Below, piece after piece: positions 29,620 to 35,919 of a DNA stretch of 64,000 bases (position 1 is the stretch's first letter; each line of letters opens with the position of its first letter). The DNA is taken from NCBI RefSeq assembly GCF_021462415.1, contig NZ_JAKEDS010000002.1, forward strand, positions 124,001 to 188,000, written 5' to 3'. The translations under genes and the position numbers were made by a program. The stretch is from Rhodohalobacter sp. 614A (GTDB taxonomy: Bacteria > Bacteroidota > Rhodothermia > Balneolales > Balneolaceae). A model generated the notes under the pieces. It did no database searches and was not told the DNA's origin. It was given only the letters and a program-made list of their open reading frames with translations.

Positions 29620-29659
29620 AGAAAGCCCTGTTCGATGCATTGGAGGGCTTTCTATTTTT
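29620..29659 (+). terminator. Rho-independent terminator after the DUF805/DUF4870 pair
   Basis: AGAAAGCCCT (29620-29629) pairs perfectly with AGGGCTTTCT (29644-29653) around a 14-nt loop and is followed by ATTTTTC. It lies 20 bp past the stop codon and 42 bp before the sugar transporter start. Confidence 0.75.
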
Positions 29660-29700
29660 CTGATTCTTACTTTATAGAGTTACTAAAAACGAATTACTCT

Positions 29701-31050
29701 ATGTTGAAAACCAGGTCTATTGCACTGTCTGCTATTGCGGCCTCATTGGCCGGCTTTTTATTTGGATTTGATACCATCGTGATTTCCGGGGCTGACCAGC
29801 CGATTCAGGAACTCTGGCAAATGAGTGATTTGTTTCACGGAACGTTTATTATGTCGATGGCTCTTTGGGGAACGGTCATCGGAGCTCTTTTTGGAGGTAT
29901 CCCGTGTGACAAATTTGGAAGACGAAAAACACTCTTCTGGATTGGAATTTTATACTTTCTTTCCGCCGTAGGCTCAGGCCTTGCGCCCGATCCGTATATT
30001 TTTTCATTCTCACGCTTTATTGGCGGCCTGGGTGTTGGGGCCTCATCCGTAGCTGCCCCGGTTTACATTTCAGAAATTACACCCGCAAGAAATCGTGGCA
30101 AGCTGGTTGCTTTGTATCAATTCAATATTGTGTTTGGAATTTTGGTTGCATACCTGTCTAACTATTGGCTGGGAACCACTTTGGATGAAAACGCCTGGCG
30201 CTGGATGTTGGGTGTAGAAGGAATTCCTGCGGCCATCTACTGTTTCTTTGTGATAGGTATTCCGGAAAGTCCCCGATGGTTGGCAATCAAAAAACAAGAT
30301 ACATCAACCGCACGGGAGATATTGCAACAACTTAACCCAAAAGCCAATATCGACAAGATGATGGCTGAAATAACCAAATCGGTTTCTGGTGATTCTGGAG
30401 CATCCAAATTCTTTTCGAAAAGACTTCGCTTTCCAATCATGCTGGCATTCCTTTTTGCGTTTTTCAATCAGTGGTCGGGAATCAATTTTGTGCTTTATTA
30501 TGCTCCCCGAATTTTTGAACAAGCCGGAATTGCCGCAAGCGAAGTTCTCGGAGCTTCAGTACCTATTGGGGTTGTAAACCTGATTTTTACCCTCTTCGGC
30601 ATGTATCTGATTGACAAAGCTGGAAGAAAGGTTTTGATGTATATTGGATCATTTGGCTACATTTTATCTCTGCTGGGAGTCGCATGGGCTTTTTCAACCG
30701 GTGCTGAAGGAGCGATTGTGGTTGCATTTGTCACGGCATTTGTTGCCTCGCATGCTATTGGACAAGGGGCCGTCATTTGGGTATTCATTTCTGAAATATT
30801 TCCAAATGCCGTCCGCGATTATGGAATGTCACTCGGATCCGGAACGCATTGGGTTTTTGCCGCCATTATTACGCTGGTGACTCCCTCGGTTCTTAATGCA
30901 TTTTCCGGAGCACAAATCTTTTCCTTTTTTGCTTTTATGATGTTCCTGCAACTCCTGTTCGTCTGGAAGCTTATGCCGGAAACCAAGAATATTTCGCTTG
31001 AAGAAATGGAAGCTAAACTAGGTATTAATCGAGAGGCGTTGGAAGAGTGA
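29701..31050 (+). CDS. MFS sugar transporter (XylE/GalP-type sugar:H+ symporter)
   Basis: A 449-residue major-facilitator protein with about 12 membrane helices. Sugar-porter signatures are present: GFLFGFDTIVISGADQPIQ in TM1, DKFGRRKTLFWIG after TM2, PVYISEITPARNRGKL, PESPRWL after TM6, QWSGINFVLYYAPRIFEQAG in TM7, DKAGRKVLMYIG and the final PETKNISLEEME. The subfamily imports hexoses or pentoses with protons; exact specificity is not readable. I chose ATG 29701, because the in-frame start at 29635 would lie in the terminator loop region. It has no enzyme neighbours. Confidence 0.9.
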   Translation: MLKTRSIALSAIAASLAGFLFGFDTIVISGADQPIQELWQMSDLFHGTFIMSMALWGTVIGALFGGIPCDKFGRRKTLFWIGILYFLSAVGSGLAPDPYIFSFSRFIGGLGVGASSVAAPVYISEITPARNRGKLVALYQFNIVFGILVAYLSNYWLGTTLDENAWRWMLGVEGIPAAIYCFFVIGIPESPRWLAIKKQDTSTAREILQQLNPKANIDKMMAEITKSVSGDSGASKFFSKRLRFPIMLAFLFAFFNQWSGINFVLYYAPRIFEQAGIAASEVLGASVPIGVVNLIFTLFGMYLIDKAGRKVLMYIGSFGYILSLLGVAWAFSTGAEGAIVVAFVTAFVASHAIGQGAVIWVFISEIFPNAVRDYGMSLGSGTHWVFAAIITLVTPSVLNAFSGAQIFSFFAFMMFLQLLFVWKLMPETKNISLEEMEAKLGINREALEE

Positions 31051-31233
31051 GCAAAAACAACTCAACAACCCCGGCTGATTCTTTGATTCAAAAAAAGTCT
31101 ACAGATTTAAACCAATAATTTGAATCTCGCGGAAATAACAAAAGCCGGGTAACTCCAACAATTGATGAACGTACTGATTGCAGGTTTTTTATTCTGTACT
31201 GGATCTTTTTAGGGTAAGAAAATCAGCGTATCG

Positions 31234-32058
31234 CTATGATTCCTGCTCAAAGAAGAATAGTTTGGACACCGATGTAGAAAAATCTTCGATAGGTACCCTA
31301 CAAACTCCCTCTTCCAACATTCTTAAATGTGTCTCTTTCTCTCCATGAATAACCATTTTTTGAGGAGGAGATTTATGAAGCCGGTCAATAGTTATTTTTG
31401 CCTCATGATTTATAACTTCTAAATGGATGGACAACTTATCTGTGTCAATATCAAACGAGTCAATATTTATGAAGTTTGTTTTCTTATCACAATAAACATG
31501 AACTTTTGATAACGGCAGGTATAACTCACACTGGTTCCATCCCTTGATATCGTTGAGGGAGATACTTTCGGGGATAGAAATAAAACCTCCCAATTCACTG
31601 ACAAAGGTTAGTTTCTTTTCGGGTATTTTGATGATTACTAAATCGTCCTCACCAACAAATTCAGAAACCACATATAACTTAAACTGATTATTTACCTTGT
31701 CGTGTAATACACGTATTGAGGTTTTATGATCGTCCGAAATAAAGGTTCGAACTGGTTTAAGTGTTAAATTTTTTCTTGATAATGCCTGTATTTGGGTGGT
31801 GGGGGAAGAAAAGTTACTAGAAAAGCGCTTTTCCTCCTTACTCGATTTTAAGCGAATGTAAGAGGGTTTCTTATCGGTATCATTTGTGGATTTTTCGATT
31901 AGATCGACGGTATTGTAGTAATCCCTAAACCAATCTGCCAAAAGGCGGAGTTCGCAATCTTTCTCAATCCACCCTTCAATCCATATTATTTCTTTAGTAG
32001 ACAGATCTGATGGATAGCGGATATAAGTTTCTATATGTTCTTCGGAAGGTTTATCCAA
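31234..32058 (-). CDS. Hypothetical protein, possible anti-sigma-like partner of the upstream gene
   Basis: I do not recognise this 274-residue protein. The first ~60 residues (DLSTKEIIWIEGWIEKDCEL then RLLADWFRDYYNTVDLIEKS) read like the helical N-terminus of anti-sigma factors, where a 'residue-count' segment is followed by a short helix. No zinc HxxxCxxC motif and no membrane segment are visible, so a soluble regulator is possible. The remainder is a beta-rich region (LYVVSEFVGEDDLVIIKIPE, IHLEVINHEAKITIDRLHKS). It lies 54 bp downstream of the 335-residue gene on the same strand and is probably co-transcribed with it. The anti-sigma idea is an inference from order and a weak resemblance. 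Confidence 0.6.
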   Translation of the reverse strand: MDKPSEEHIETYIRYPSDLSTKEIIWIEGWIEKDCELRLLADWFRDYYNTVDLIEKSTNDTDKKPSYIRLKSSKEEKRFSSNFSSPTTQIQALSRKNLTLKPVRTFISDDHKTSIRVLHDKVNNQFKLYVVSEFVGEDDLVIIKIPEKKLTFVSELGGFISIPESISLNDIKGWNQCELYLPLSKVHVYCDKKTNFINIDSFDIDTDKLSIHLEVINHEAKITIDRLHKSPPQKMVIHGEKETHLRMLEEGVCRVPIEDFSTSVSKLFFFEQES

Positions 32059-32112
32059 AATAACGTTTGTTGTTTTTACCCATGTCTTTGCAAAATCGAA
32101 CTGGTGCCGATT

Positions 32113-33120
32113 TTAAAGCCAATCATCTTTGAAAGAAGATACTAAATCTTTTTTAATTTGATTAACAATATACTCAAGATATTGTCTTTTGTTATTCCTG
32201 TAATCCTCATGATCTAAGTGTGGCAGATAGTTTTTTAGCCATTCATATTGCGAGAATTCTTTCCTGCCATCCGTGAAATGATCTCTTACAATATCTTGGG
32301 CTGCAACCATATACAAATCCAGCTCCTCGCTATCTAATTTGCCTTTTTCAACGTATGACACGCCGGTTTTTTTCTTTGTTTTTTGAACGCTTTCATCCAG
32401 AAAATTTTCAAAATCTGATTGAAACATATCCTCTTCTACATTCGGTAACTTACTCGATTCTGCAAGAGATTCGTTGAGATGCACGTACGCTTCTCGAATG
32501 ATGGATGCCAACGCCACAAGTGGAAATTCTTTTCGATATCTGTCCTGACAGATTAATACTTCAATCACTTCATCCAAAATATCAGGAATCTGCATTTTTT
32601 CATGTAACCTGGAGCAGAGTTTCATCTGCATAAACTCGGACGGCATTGCCGGTTGATTTTGAATTTCTTTCTCCTCAACAATAATTCTGCCGTCGTGATA
32701 CATTATTGAGTGATGACAGCTTTTTTCTTTTAAAGCCAATTTAAGATTTCGAATAATTTTTCTCAGGGATGGATCTCTTTTTCCAAGAGAACGGAAAATA
32801 TTATCCTCTACTTTTGTAAAGATAAGTTTCCTTAATTCAATACGGATTTTTTTCTCGGTAAAGGTTGCGATATCCTTATCACAAAAATATTCCTTTAATT
32901 TTATTAGTTCGCCCTTCTCATTTTTCTCAAAAATATCTGCGATAAAATCCCAGGCAATGTCTTCAAGTTTTTCTCCTCGTATCATATACAAAGAACTAGA
33001 AGAGGCTTTCATTCGTAAATATGCCAATGCTTTTCTGTGGCAAAAACGAATAAGTAAATGCAATTCATTTCTGCTTTCGCAACCGTCTATACAGCTTTTA
33101 ACAGTCTCTTGTATTTTCAT
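32113..33120 (-). CDS. Hypothetical protein, possible divergent sigma-like regulator
   Basis: I do not recognise this 335-residue protein with confidence. It is lysine/glutamate-rich, helical, and without signal or membrane segments. Residues ~20-110 (LIRFCHRKALAYLRMKA, EKLEDIAWDFIADIFEKNEK, ATFTEKKIRIELRKLIF) loosely follow the layout of sigma-70 region 2, where a helix with 'D..Q..F' is followed by a basic helix. A clear region-4 helix-turn-helix is missing; the C-terminus (QYEWLKNYLPHLDHEDYR) is another helical segment. It is transcribed away from wzc and followed by the gene at 31234. A role in controlling the polysaccharide cluster is a guess from position. Confidence 0.6.
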   Translation of the reverse strand: MKIQETVKSCIDGCESRNELHLLIRFCHRKALAYLRMKASSSSLYMIRGEKLEDIAWDFIADIFEKNEKGELIKLKEYFCDKDIATFTEKKIRIELRKLIFTKVEDNIFRSLGKRDPSLRKIIRNLKLALKEKSCHHSIMYHDGRIIVEEKEIQNQPAMPSEFMQMKLCSRLHEKMQIPDILDEVIEVLICQDRYRKEFPLVALASIIREAYVHLNESLAESSKLPNVEEDMFQSDFENFLDESVQKTKKKTGVSYVEKGKLDSEELDLYMVAAQDIVRDHFTDGRKEFSQYEWLKNYLPHLDHEDYRNNKRQYLEYIVNQIKKDLVSSFKDDWL

Positions 33121-33519
33121 TTAAAATAATTTTGTATTTCTTAGTAAGAATCGTAAGAAATCTTAAAAGATTTTGGCAAGATTCGATTATTTTTTTAAAA
33201 ATTTATGTCTGCACACTATTTTAAATGTTATGAAATTCTAATCAAATGGTAATTACTTTACAATACACAGTAAGCTATTAGCAAATGTATTTCAGTAATA
33301 ATTAACAGTATTCTGCGAGGTCCTTGACTTAACTGTAATAAGATTAAAAAAAATTAATTAAATAATTTTAATTTTTCATTAAATAAAAAAAGGCACTGAG
33401 CTTTGCCGAATAATACTTTTTAAAACCCAAGCAGTGTGCTATAGAAGTATATTTGAATTCACATTCAATGTTTCTGAATAAATCAATTTTTTAGATAAAC
33501 ATATCAATAAGGGTATTTC
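33121..33519. other. AT-rich divergent control region upstream of wzc
   Basis: These 399 bp separate the minus-strand regulator-like gene from the polysaccharide cluster and must hold the main promoter(s) in both directions. The stretch is strongly AT-rich with many A/T runs. I saw no reading frame, tRNA or strong hairpin. Confidence 0.6.
33448..33455 (+). promoter_or_regulatory. Candidate Bacteroidota-type -7 promoter box for wzc
   Basis: TATATTTG matches the TAnnTTTG -7 consensus of Bacteroidota housekeeping promoters and lies 65 bp before the wzc ATG. I did not find a matching TTTG -33 box at the usual distance, so support is partial. Confidence 0.3.
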
Positions 33520-35919
33520 ATGAGCGACTTCGACAACAATTCCTTTTCAAATGGCAGCAACGGTTTTCATAGAGAACAGCCCCGGTATAAGGGAGAAAAT
33601 GTGACGAACAATCAGAAGCTGTTTGAGTCTGGTAATGATAATGAGATTGATTTACGAGTTGTATTCGGAGTTCTTTTAAAATATAAATGGTGGGTGATTG
33701 GCATCACGCTGCTTTGTTTTGGCGGTGCGTATTTATATGCGAATTTAGCTCAGCCAATTTATGAAAGCTCGGGTACTGTTCTGATTACCCAAGAGAATTC
33801 TCAGTATCCCATGAAAGACTCTGATTTATCATATATGATGTCTTCAACGTTTGGGGTTGGTGCGGGCAACAGGCTGGAGAATGAAATGGAAATCTTACAA
33901 TCCAGGAGCCTTTCAAGTGAAATTGCCAAGAGACTTTTAGAAGAGAAAACCATGGAAAACGGTGAGAACTTCCCGATTCTCTGGTATAATTATCCTGAAG
34001 ATTCTACCCTTATTCCTCAGTCTGCCGTGGCACAGAGAATAAAAAATAAAATGATTTTAGAGCGGACGGATCAGGATACAGATGTTATTAGAATCCGGTA
34101 TGAAAGTTACTCTCCATTCGAGGCAAAACGCCTGGTTGATATCACCATCGACACTTACATTGATGTATCTATACGGCAGAAAAGAACTGAAGCAAACTCA
34201 GCTCTCACATTTCTTGAGAGCGAATTGGATGATGTAGAAAGTAATCTTGAATCGGCCGAAGTAGCCCTGAAAGATTATAGAAAGAATACGAACCTGGTAG
34301 AGGTAGATGGCCAGACAAATGCAGTCATAACCAGGATGGCAGAACTTGAATCCCAGATGCAAGAGGTACAGGTGCAGCGGGTTTCTATAAGTTCTTCCAT
34401 TGAATCGTATGAGAACCAGCTTGAGCAAATTAAACCCGGTCTTGCCGAACAGTTTGCCGAGAATATTAGCGGCAGGCTGGAAGGAGCCCAGTTGCGTTTG
34501 GCTGAGTTAAGAACAGCCCAATCATTAATGCTTCAACGAAATCCTGGATTGCAAAGTAACCCGGAATCCGAGCCACAGTTTATTCGTAATCAGGAAGAGA
34601 TTAGAACGGTTCGTGAAGAGATAAGGGAAATCACCAATAATCTTTTAAATGCAGATGATTCCGATGTGTACATCGGTTTCCTGGAACAAGAAGATGGTGG
34701 TGTGACAAATCGTATTCTTGAGCTCAGAAAAAATTTAATTGAGTTGAAAATTCAAGAGTCGCAACTCAATGCACAGGAAGAGGTTATCCAGCAGAGAATG
34801 GCAGAAGAGAATCAATTTTTTGATGGTCTTCCGGAAAATATGCTGGAACTGGCGCGTCTTCAGCGGGAAGTAAAAATCTCGGAAGAACTTTTTACTACAA
34901 TTTCGAATCAGTTTGCTGAAACGCAGTTATGGGAGCAAACACAATTTGGTGCAGGGCGGCCGATTGATTACGGTTACTTGCCAGAGGATCCATCCTCGCC
35001 GAATAAGATTTTGTATTCTCTCATCGGTTTGATCATCGGATTTACATTTGGAATAGGGTTTGTAGTTATAAGAAGTTCACTTAATTCGAAAATTGATGGC
35101 GCAGAGAAACTGAAAGATGCGGGATTCCGTTTGTTGTCGGTCATTCCTGATTATACCAATCATGTGAAGGAAAAATACAACGGGCAATCCTTTGTGCACG
35201 TAAAAGATAAAAAGGTAAGCACCGGCTGGGAAACCATACTGGATTCTATTTCACCCATTTCCGAAGCGTATCGCCGCTTGCAGAATAATATTATTTTTTC
35301 CGATCCGGACACGAATATTCAGACTATCGTAGTAACCAGTTCTCAGAAGAGTGAAGGGAAAACCACCGTTTCTGCGAATCTTGCCGTATCATTGGCAGAA
35401 GGTGGAAAAAAAGTTCTCCTGATTGACAGTGACCTCCGGAGACCGAATATTCATACATTTACCGGTGAAGCGAGAGAACCGGGCCTATCAGAAGTTTTTT
35501 ATGATGACAAATCACTAAGTACGGCTATAAAACCAACCATTGCCCCGGCAGTAGAGGCTCTCACGGCGGGTCATTCCATTCCCAATCCTGCAGCCGTGAT
35601 GCAGAGTAAGAAACTCAAAAGTTTTTTAAGTGAGTTAAAACACCACTACGATCACATCATTATTGATACTCCGCCATTTGGAGTGATTACAGATGCTGCC
35701 CCGTTAATGCAGAATGCAGATGGTGTAATTTTGGTAGCCCGGTTTGGCCAAACTCAGACATATCAGCTTGAACAAACCATTGAGAACCTGAAGGGTGTGA
35801 ACGCGAATATAATTGGGACTGTATTAACAGCTTATAAGCATAGCAAGAGCGCTGAATATTACAATTACAATTATAAGTACAATAACTATGAAGCTTACAA
35901 AGAGTATCAGGAAACTTAG
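33520..35919 (+). CDS. wzc: Polysaccharide co-polymerase and tyrosine autokinase (Wzc type)
   Basis: A 799-residue inner-membrane protein that controls chain length and export of an extracellular polysaccharide. A Wzz domain begins at the first membrane helix (YKWWVIGITLLCFGGAYLYA, about 53-73); a long periplasmic coiled-coil follows, then the second helix (KILYSLIGLIIGFTFGIGFV, about 490-510). The cytoplasmic BY-kinase has Walker A SSQKSEGKTT (~606), Walker A' LLIDSDLRRP (~633), Walker B IIIDTPP (~713) and a tyrosine-rich tail with nine Tyr in the last ~20 residues, the autophosphorylation cluster. Kinase and membrane part are fused, as in Proteobacteria and Bacteroidota. It is the first gene of the cluster. 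Confidence 0.93.
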   Translation: MSDFDNNSFSNGSNGFHREQPRYKGENVTNNQKLFESGNDNEIDLRVVFGVLLKYKWWVIGITLLCFGGAYLYANLAQPIYESSGTVLITQENSQYPMKDSDLSYMMSSTFGVGAGNRLENEMEILQSRSLSSEIAKRLLEEKTMENGENFPILWYNYPEDSTLIPQSAVAQRIKNKMILERTDQDTDVIRIRYESYSPFEAKRLVDITIDTYIDVSIRQKRTEANSALTFLESELDDVESNLESAEVALKDYRKNTNLVEVDGQTNAVITRMAELESQMQEVQVQRVSISSSIESYENQLEQIKPGLAEQFAENISGRLEGAQLRLAELRTAQSLMLQRNPGLQSNPESEPQFIRNQEEIRTVREEIREITNNLLNADDSDVYIGFLEQEDGGVTNRILELRKNLIELKIQESQLNAQEEVIQQRMAEENQFFDGLPENMLELARLQREVKISEELFTTISNQFAETQLWEQTQFGAGRPIDYGYLPEDPSSPNKILYSLIGLIIGFTFGIGFVVIRSSLNSKIDGAEKLKDAGFRLLSVIPDYTNHVKEKYNGQSFVHVKDKKVSTGWETILDSISPISEAYRRLQNNIIFSDPDTNIQTIVVTSSQKSEGKTTVSANLAVSLAEGGKKVLLIDSDLRRPNIHTFTGEAREPGLSEVFYDDKSLSTAIKPTIAPAVEALTAGHSIPNPAAVMQSKKLKSFLSELKHHYDHIIIDTPPFGVITDAAPLMQNADGVILVARFGQTQTYQLEQTIENLKGVNANIIGTVLTAYKHSKSAEYYNYNYKYNNYEAYKEYQET

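Follow-up and report, generated by a model that had tools for sequence, protein, structure and literature searches.

A putative sigma/anti-sigma pair in Rhodohalobacter sp. 614A is apparently the remnant of a module that includes a transmembrane Lon-type protein in related bacteria

INTRODUCTION

In Rhodohalobacter sp. 614A, two genes without a recognisable protein family lie divergent to a wzc-type tyrosine kinase gene, which raises the question of what such a pair does and whether it serves the adjoining polysaccharide cluster. The initial annotation of the window, that is, the whole stretch of 64,000 nucleotides analysed here (positions 124,001 to 188,000 of contig NZ_JAKEDS010000002.1), had proposed a sigma-like gene followed by an anti-sigma-like gene that together regulate this cluster. 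We refer to the two genes as SIG and ANT. Here, we show by computation the set and order of the genes to which they belong, the domain homologies, Lon catalytic residues and topology of the encoded proteins, and the conservation and joint loss of a linker motif. The pair in the window is apparently the remnant of a seemingly undescribed module, SIG-ANT-LON, that is spread through the phylum; our literature searches, which were of partial coverage, found no description of it.

RESULTS

Layout of the locus

SIG and ANT are both encoded on the minus strand with a spacing of 54 bp, and wzc starts divergently at 33520, 399 bp from SIG. Their positions and strands are as first described, both open reading frames are intact, and neither protein of the window could be assigned to a Pfam or NCBIfam family. 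The window genome (G000; 4.69 Mb, 99.3% complete) has its nearest named relatives among the Balneolaceae, including Rhodohalobacter sulfatireducens WB101. The locus comprises the following features:

29635..31050, plus strand: sugar transporter (MFS), convergent neighbour downstream of ANT (Pfam Sugar_tr, E 2e-104)
31051..31233, no strand: 183-bp gap at the position of the relatives' Lon-like membrane protease gene, the protease being absent here and from the whole genome
31234..32058, minus strand: ANT, intact open reading frame of 274 amino acids with a TTG start, soluble and anti-sigma-like, with orthologues beside SIG
31237..31764, minus strand: ANT residues 99-274, two Ig-like beta domains (AlphaFold model, pTM 0.68)
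31789..31809, minus strand: ANT residues 84-90 (SSPTTQI), site of the lost F-VLAAxT/S linker motif (alignment with close relatives)
31888..32058, minus strand: ANT residues 1-57, anti-sigma domain of three helices that has lost its zinc ligands (hhalign)
32113..33120, minus strand: SIG, intact open reading frame of 335 amino acids, first gene of the pair, with relatives in 51 of 394 genomes of the phylum
32116..32415, minus strand: SIG residues 236-335, helical C-terminal domain, weak candidate for a region-4 equivalent (VIA-align, lambda Q)
32776..33117, minus strand: SIG residues 2-115, predicted sigma region 2 fold (AlphaFold model and VIA-align)
33520..35919, plus strand: wzc-type tyrosine kinase, divergent neighbour (Pfam Wzz, GNVR, AAA_31)

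The TTG start codon of ANT (window 32058) apparently recurs in close relatives (L020, L023-L030, L118) and could possibly tune the anti-sigma dose. The regions upstream of SIG in 16 genomes were compared by eye for a common promoter element. TTGTAAT..TTTGT-like and GGGGTTA-like words recur before SIG (window 33121-33440, L023, L024, L026, L027, L031), and because they sit in very AT-rich DNA, no promoter element is claimed.

Distribution of the pair and its third partner

Homologous SIG-ANT pairs in the same order were found in eight related genomes, with identities of 39-56% for SIG and 26-41% for ANT. Together with the relatives of SIG in 51 of the 394 genomes, this identifies both as real genes. 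Within the genus and family, the two homologues co-occur, keep their order and are adjacent wherever contigs permit. An alignment-based scan of contigs gave matches where a one-protein scan had given none. Directly after ANT, the relatives carry a third gene, LON, encoding a protein of about 780 amino acids.

Of the 394 genomes searched with profiles, 51 contained SIG and 47 contained the third protein or its outer domain. Both SIG and a LON/BETA protein were present in 45 genomes, SIG alone in 6, and LON/BETA alone in 2 (Fisher P 5e-50); the sample was taken by species, and these counts are not phylogenetically independent, though many families are involved. The order SIG-ANT-LON is kept from the genus of the window strain out to other families and classes of the phylum, with LON lying upstream rather than downstream in a few genomes. 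In most fetched loci, SIG is followed by ANT or by a protein of the ZAS-TM-BETA type.

Full modules often neighbour genes for large proteins sorted by the T9SS that contain LamG, cohesin/dockerin or CBM domains, hinting that the module may control surface proteins. Eight large secreted proteins adjoining the module (L092 119-2782, L094 10494-15620, L095 11280-14681, L106 10557-12470, L161 6280-7851, L163 6468-8078, L167 7260-10136, and L029 1395-6392) form a possible regulon; a T9SS sorting tail is present in 7/8 and LamG in 5/8.

ANT and its zinc-binding relatives

The AlphaFold model of ANT comprises helices at residues 6-14, 21-33, and 35-57, a linker with pLDDT under 50, and two Ig-like domains. 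The C-terminal two thirds of the protein are thus beta in the model, in keeping with the beta-rich C-terminal half first noted. When 15 zinc-less ANT domains were aligned by hhalign with the domains of 11 HxxxCxxC anti-sigma-TM proteins, the match had a probability of 96% (E 1.5e-9) and a score of 45, compared with at most 12 for 60 column permutations. In the PDB, the zinc form of the domain in turn reached RslA with an E of 0.004 and RsiW with an E of 0.14, plus some unrelated cysteine-rich matches. The HxxxCxxC signature is absent from the window ANT and its close relatives and present in six distant soluble ANTs and in 11/11 ANT-TM fusions, and no TM segment was found in the window ANT. 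As the zinc-less domain matches the zinc domains of the fusions and the zinc form reaches RslA and RsiW, ANT is, judged by sequence homology, an anti-sigma factor by descent, derived from the ZAS family and not a canonical member of it. The view of the initial annotation that the second gene starts like an anti-sigma factor devoid of zinc and membrane motifs was therefore sustained. A structure search with ANT matched generic beta, Ig-like and FnIII-like domains at a Z of 6 or less, and the helical domain drew no match. Matches of ANT to RepB/RepA (E 0.03-0.04) and a match to HEC-01B were judged to be due to chance.

The fusions come from eleven loci (e.g., L098, L101, L104, and L154-L158) in which SIG is followed by a single protein of 440-500 amino acids, composed of an HxxxCxxC zinc anti-sigma domain, a TM segment and the same outer domain as in the LON protein, without Lon. 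This two-gene version is the simpler form, the zinc anti-sigma-TM-FG-GAP fusion replacing ANT and LON. A conserved gene encoding about 1,210 amino acids lies directly upstream of SIG in three of the two-gene genomes (L154 942-4619, L155 7064-10720, and L156 6871-10497).

Predicted fold of SIG

The AlphaFold model of SIG, with nine sequences, had a mean pLDDT of 77 and a pTM of only 0.39. Residues 2-115 superposed on ShbA (9isn_F) with a Z of 9.2 and an rmsd of 2.5 Å over 91 residues (VIA-align), and sigma factors, AlgU, FliA, SigS, and SigA among them, made up most of the 50 listed chains matching the model. Foldseek alone ranked sigma-S first with an E of 0.25, the matched domain being small and helical. 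The best non-sigma structural matches fall in the other half of the model, where residues 236-335 aligned with lambda Q (4mo1) with a Z of 7.6 and an rmsd of 3.4 over 95 residues (VIA-align). Lambda Q has an HTH in common with sigma70 region 4 and binds the same RNA polymerase flap (PMC7171158), so the C-terminal half of SIG may do the job of region 4.

At the sequence level, SIG showed no significant similarity to sigma factors even with 34-40 sequences, and PDB profile searches returned no significant sigma match. Alignment of SIG by hhalign to an ECF profile of 27 ECF factors from three genomes, including the region-4 part, was not significant against permuted controls. Among 34 SIG members searched with Pfam and NCBIfam, the only matches to sigma factors were two sub-threshold NCBIfam ones, SigW and ShbA, in one member each, and the 31 Sigma70_r2 matches in the window genome do not include SIG. 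An internal duplication of SIG, its N-terminal against its C-terminal half, was rejected (score 18.1, permuted maximum 22.9).

In the predicted structure, a sigma region 2 fold of the N-terminal domain is moderately supported. The helical, region-2-like N-terminus ascribed to the first gene was thus borne out by the model and its superposition on sigma region 2, and the reported lack of a clear region 4 also stands, none being recognisable by sequence although residues 236-335 resemble lambda Q. The order of a sigma-like and then an anti-sigma-like gene agrees with the homology of the ANT domain, the model of the SIG N-domain, and the two-gene version, in which the zinc anti-sigma-TM protein directly follows SIG. 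Given the region-2-like fold and the anti-sigma partner, a sigma factor is the likeliest reading of SIG, and we hold it with good confidence.

LON, a membrane-anchored Lon-type protein

LON proteins begin with a helical domain, which is followed by a protease domain of the Lon type (S16), a single TM helix and an outer, FG-GAP-like domain rich in beta structure. Searched against the PDB, a profile of 30 Lon domains (A7) matched A. fulgidus LonB with an E of 2.7e-10 and CalpL with an E of 0.08, besides many Lon proteases. Pfam Lon_C was matched by 14 of the 30 members, and all 30 sequences without exception have GxS, TG, and the Lys of the S16 dyad. The single TM helix comes immediately behind the Lon domain, and in most proteins K/R flank it on the Lon side; the protease domain should therefore be cytoplasmic and the beta domain outside. 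FG-GAP matches above the cut-off were obtained for L101, L154, L155, and L157. The six third-gene proteins scanned for an AAA ATPase contained none, apart from a weak RuBisCO-activase helical match (E 0.15).

Some loci hold two to four tandem or multiple copies of the LON/FG-GAP membrane protein (L023 1598-8688, L024 10889-15563, and L162 4479-18348; two or three in tandem in L023 and L024), as if several sensors fed one sigma/anti-sigma pair. Other LON proteins end just past the TM helix and have no outer domain (L030 7746-9062 and L100 6749-8248).

A conserved motif in the ANT linker

In the 30 soluble ANTs from protease-carrying genomes, the linker that joins the helical domain to the Ig-like part contains a motif resembling V-L-A-A-x-T/S. 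Ranked by conservation among the 246 columns of these proteins, Ala88 comes first (29/30), Ala87 fourth, and Leu86 eleventh; variants are few (LVA, LSA, MMA, and LLDS). The VLAA motif is absent from 11/11 ZAS-TM-BETA fusions, which have no protease. Its position is near the first beta strand of the Ig-like domain, and VLAA might form a strand with a structural role.

The tmRNA (ssrA) tags of genomes from this set end in RLAA (G000, G015, and G203), RMAA (G043), or ALAA (G280, G299, and G110), so an ANT stump ending in LAA would resemble an ssrA-tagged ClpXP substrate. We infer that VLAA is a candidate cleavage site; proteolysis after LAA would uncover a ClpXP degron similar to that of ssrA. 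The stumps of RseA and RsiW go to ClpXP (PMC4598750), and CalpL cuts the anti-sigma factor CalpT, with ClpXP as the proposed fate of CalpT23 (PMC11417357).

Loss of protease and motif in the window genome

LON was not found in the window genome with a protein query, a full-length profile (A3) or the Lon-domain profile A7. The latter detected only the 855-amino-acid housekeeping Lon there, and three matches in the positive control, G015. In ANT, the window sequence reads SSPTTQI where 9/9 close relatives have F/Y-[VI]LAA[QK][TS]. The window ANT keeps 25 of the 33 columns conserved in at least 8 of the 9 relatives, and all four conserved motif columns are within the 8 lost (P 0.0017 for their joint loss, in a test chosen after the motif was seen). 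This is one loss event, which cannot prove the link between motif and protease.

Compared with two protease-bearing sisters, the helical domain of the window ANT (ASD) is as similar to outgroups (41.6% identity versus 39.6 and 41.7%), and the beta part evolved hardly faster (27.3% versus 29.6 and 28.4%). The linker evolved clearly faster (22.1% versus 31.9 and 29.7%) and SIG slightly faster (43.5% versus 47.3 and 49.7%). With the rates of the ANT domains kept and linker motif and protease lost, the pair appears to be maintained with its proteolytic trigger removed. As the protease and the motif have disappeared but SIG and the two ANT domains seem to be preserved, the pair in the window probably still works as sigma and anti-sigma factors, with a changed trigger.

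DISCUSSION

We consider it fairly probable that SIG acts as a highly divergent factor of the sigma type with ANT as its soluble anti-sigma factor, and that both derive from a three-gene transmembrane signalling module predicted to cut ANT. SIG-ANT binding, the signal, the cleavage, use of the degron and promoter recognition are inferred steps of the following model. ANT would hold SIG; the outer FG-GAP-like domain would sense a signal, upon which the cytoplasmic Lon domain would be activated and would cut ANT in the linker, most simply after V-L-A-A. The anti-sigma stump with its ssrA-like -LAA end would then be removed by ClpXP, and the freed SIG would join RNA polymerase at its promoters. 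In the window strain, the proteolytic trigger would be gone. More tentatively, and with a little less than even confidence, we propose a phylum-wide, undescribed type of transmembrane signalling, in which a sigma family novel in sequence is freed when one membrane Lon-type protease with an FG-GAP-like sensor cuts a soluble anti-sigma factor at VLAA and unmasks an ssrA-mimicking degron for ClpXP; the window strain would be a natural mutant in which protease and degron were lost jointly.

The closest known parallel is CalpL-CalpT-CalpS, a type III CRISPR system of a Lon-SAVED protease, an anti-sigma factor and an ECF sigma factor. It likewise has three genes, for a sigma factor, a soluble anti-sigma factor and a Lon-type Ser/Lys protease, and release of its sigma factor through a cut in the anti-sigma factor, with the stump left to ClpXP (PMC11417357), is the course predicted here for the module too. 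In contrast, the module proteins scanned had no SAVED domain and no PADLOC match, the protease is anchored in the membrane and bears an outer FG-GAP-like sensor, SIG is unrelated to CalpS by sequence, and the module often lies beside genes for secreted proteins rather than CRISPR. RseA/sigma-E and RsiW/sigma-W share with the proposed mechanism an outer signal, proteolysis of the anti-sigma factor and a ClpXP degron at the new C-terminus (PMC4598750), and RsiW also shares the zinc anti-sigma ancestry of ANT; here, however, ANT is soluble, and a single Lon-like protease in the membrane would take the place of the site-1/site-2 cascade. The two-gene version resembles the ZAS-TM anti-sigma factors (zf-HC2; RslA, RsiW), to which the ANT domain is homologous, whereas ANT of the window lineage lacks both the zinc ligands and the membrane anchor and has two Ig-like domains. 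Archaeal LonB of A. fulgidus is the best-matching solved structure for the protease domain with its Ser/Lys dyad, but in the module protease no AAA+ was recognised, and the N-terminal region is a separate helical domain.

Foremost among the alternatives, though unlikely, is that SIG is another transcription or signalling factor with a sigma-2-like or lambda-Q-like fold, such as an anti-terminator or a regulator that binds RNA polymerase, and that ANT holds it just as it would hold a sigma factor. Its lack of sequence similarity to sigma factors, the resemblance of its C-terminal half to lambda Q and a length of 335 amino acids, long for an ECF factor, would fit; however, its partner derives from a zinc anti-sigma factor and SIG comes first in the order, the best fold matches of residues 2-115 are to sigma region 2, and the weak single-member NCBIfam matches are to SigW and ShbA. 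Slightly less probable again is that the Lon-like domain spares ANT, being a protease or pseudoprotease for some other substrate or degrading SIG, with VLAAxT as a docking or structural element. Cleavage of ANT is a prediction, and the nearness of the motif to the first Ig-like beta strand suits a structural role; against this, the catalytic Ser and Lys are invariant in 30 sequences, the motif occurs only in protease-linked ANTs and was lost along with the protease, -LAA fits the ssrA degron, and CalpL provides a precedent.

For the window itself, it is similarly doubtful that the pair is a decaying, functionless remnant: the protease is absent and the linker has changed, but both reading frames are intact, and the identities of the ANT helical and beta domains to outgroups are near those of the protease-bearing sisters. 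The original idea of a dedicated regulator of the adjacent polysaccharide cluster drew on the divergent position 399 bp from wzc and has become very improbable. wzc stands beside the pair only in the window genome, with no homologue in the other fetched loci, where the usual partner is the transmembrane Lon-like protease, often followed by T9SS-secreted proteins; neighbourhoods vary, and the pair predates its linkage to wzc.

If the reading as a sigma/anti-sigma pair from a proteolytic module is correct, it would add a new sigma family that escapes the Pfam and NCBIfam models altogether, and a way for a single protein to link an outer signal to the release of a sigma factor, in place of the usual cascade of site-1 and site-2 proteases. 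It makes a residue-level prediction for R. sulfatireducens WB101 (L111), namely, a cut at VLAA that leaves the degron -LAA, and the window strain offers a natural protease-less comparison to this relative. It would also suggest that the control of anti-sigma factors by Lon proteases extends beyond the CRISPR-linked CalpL.
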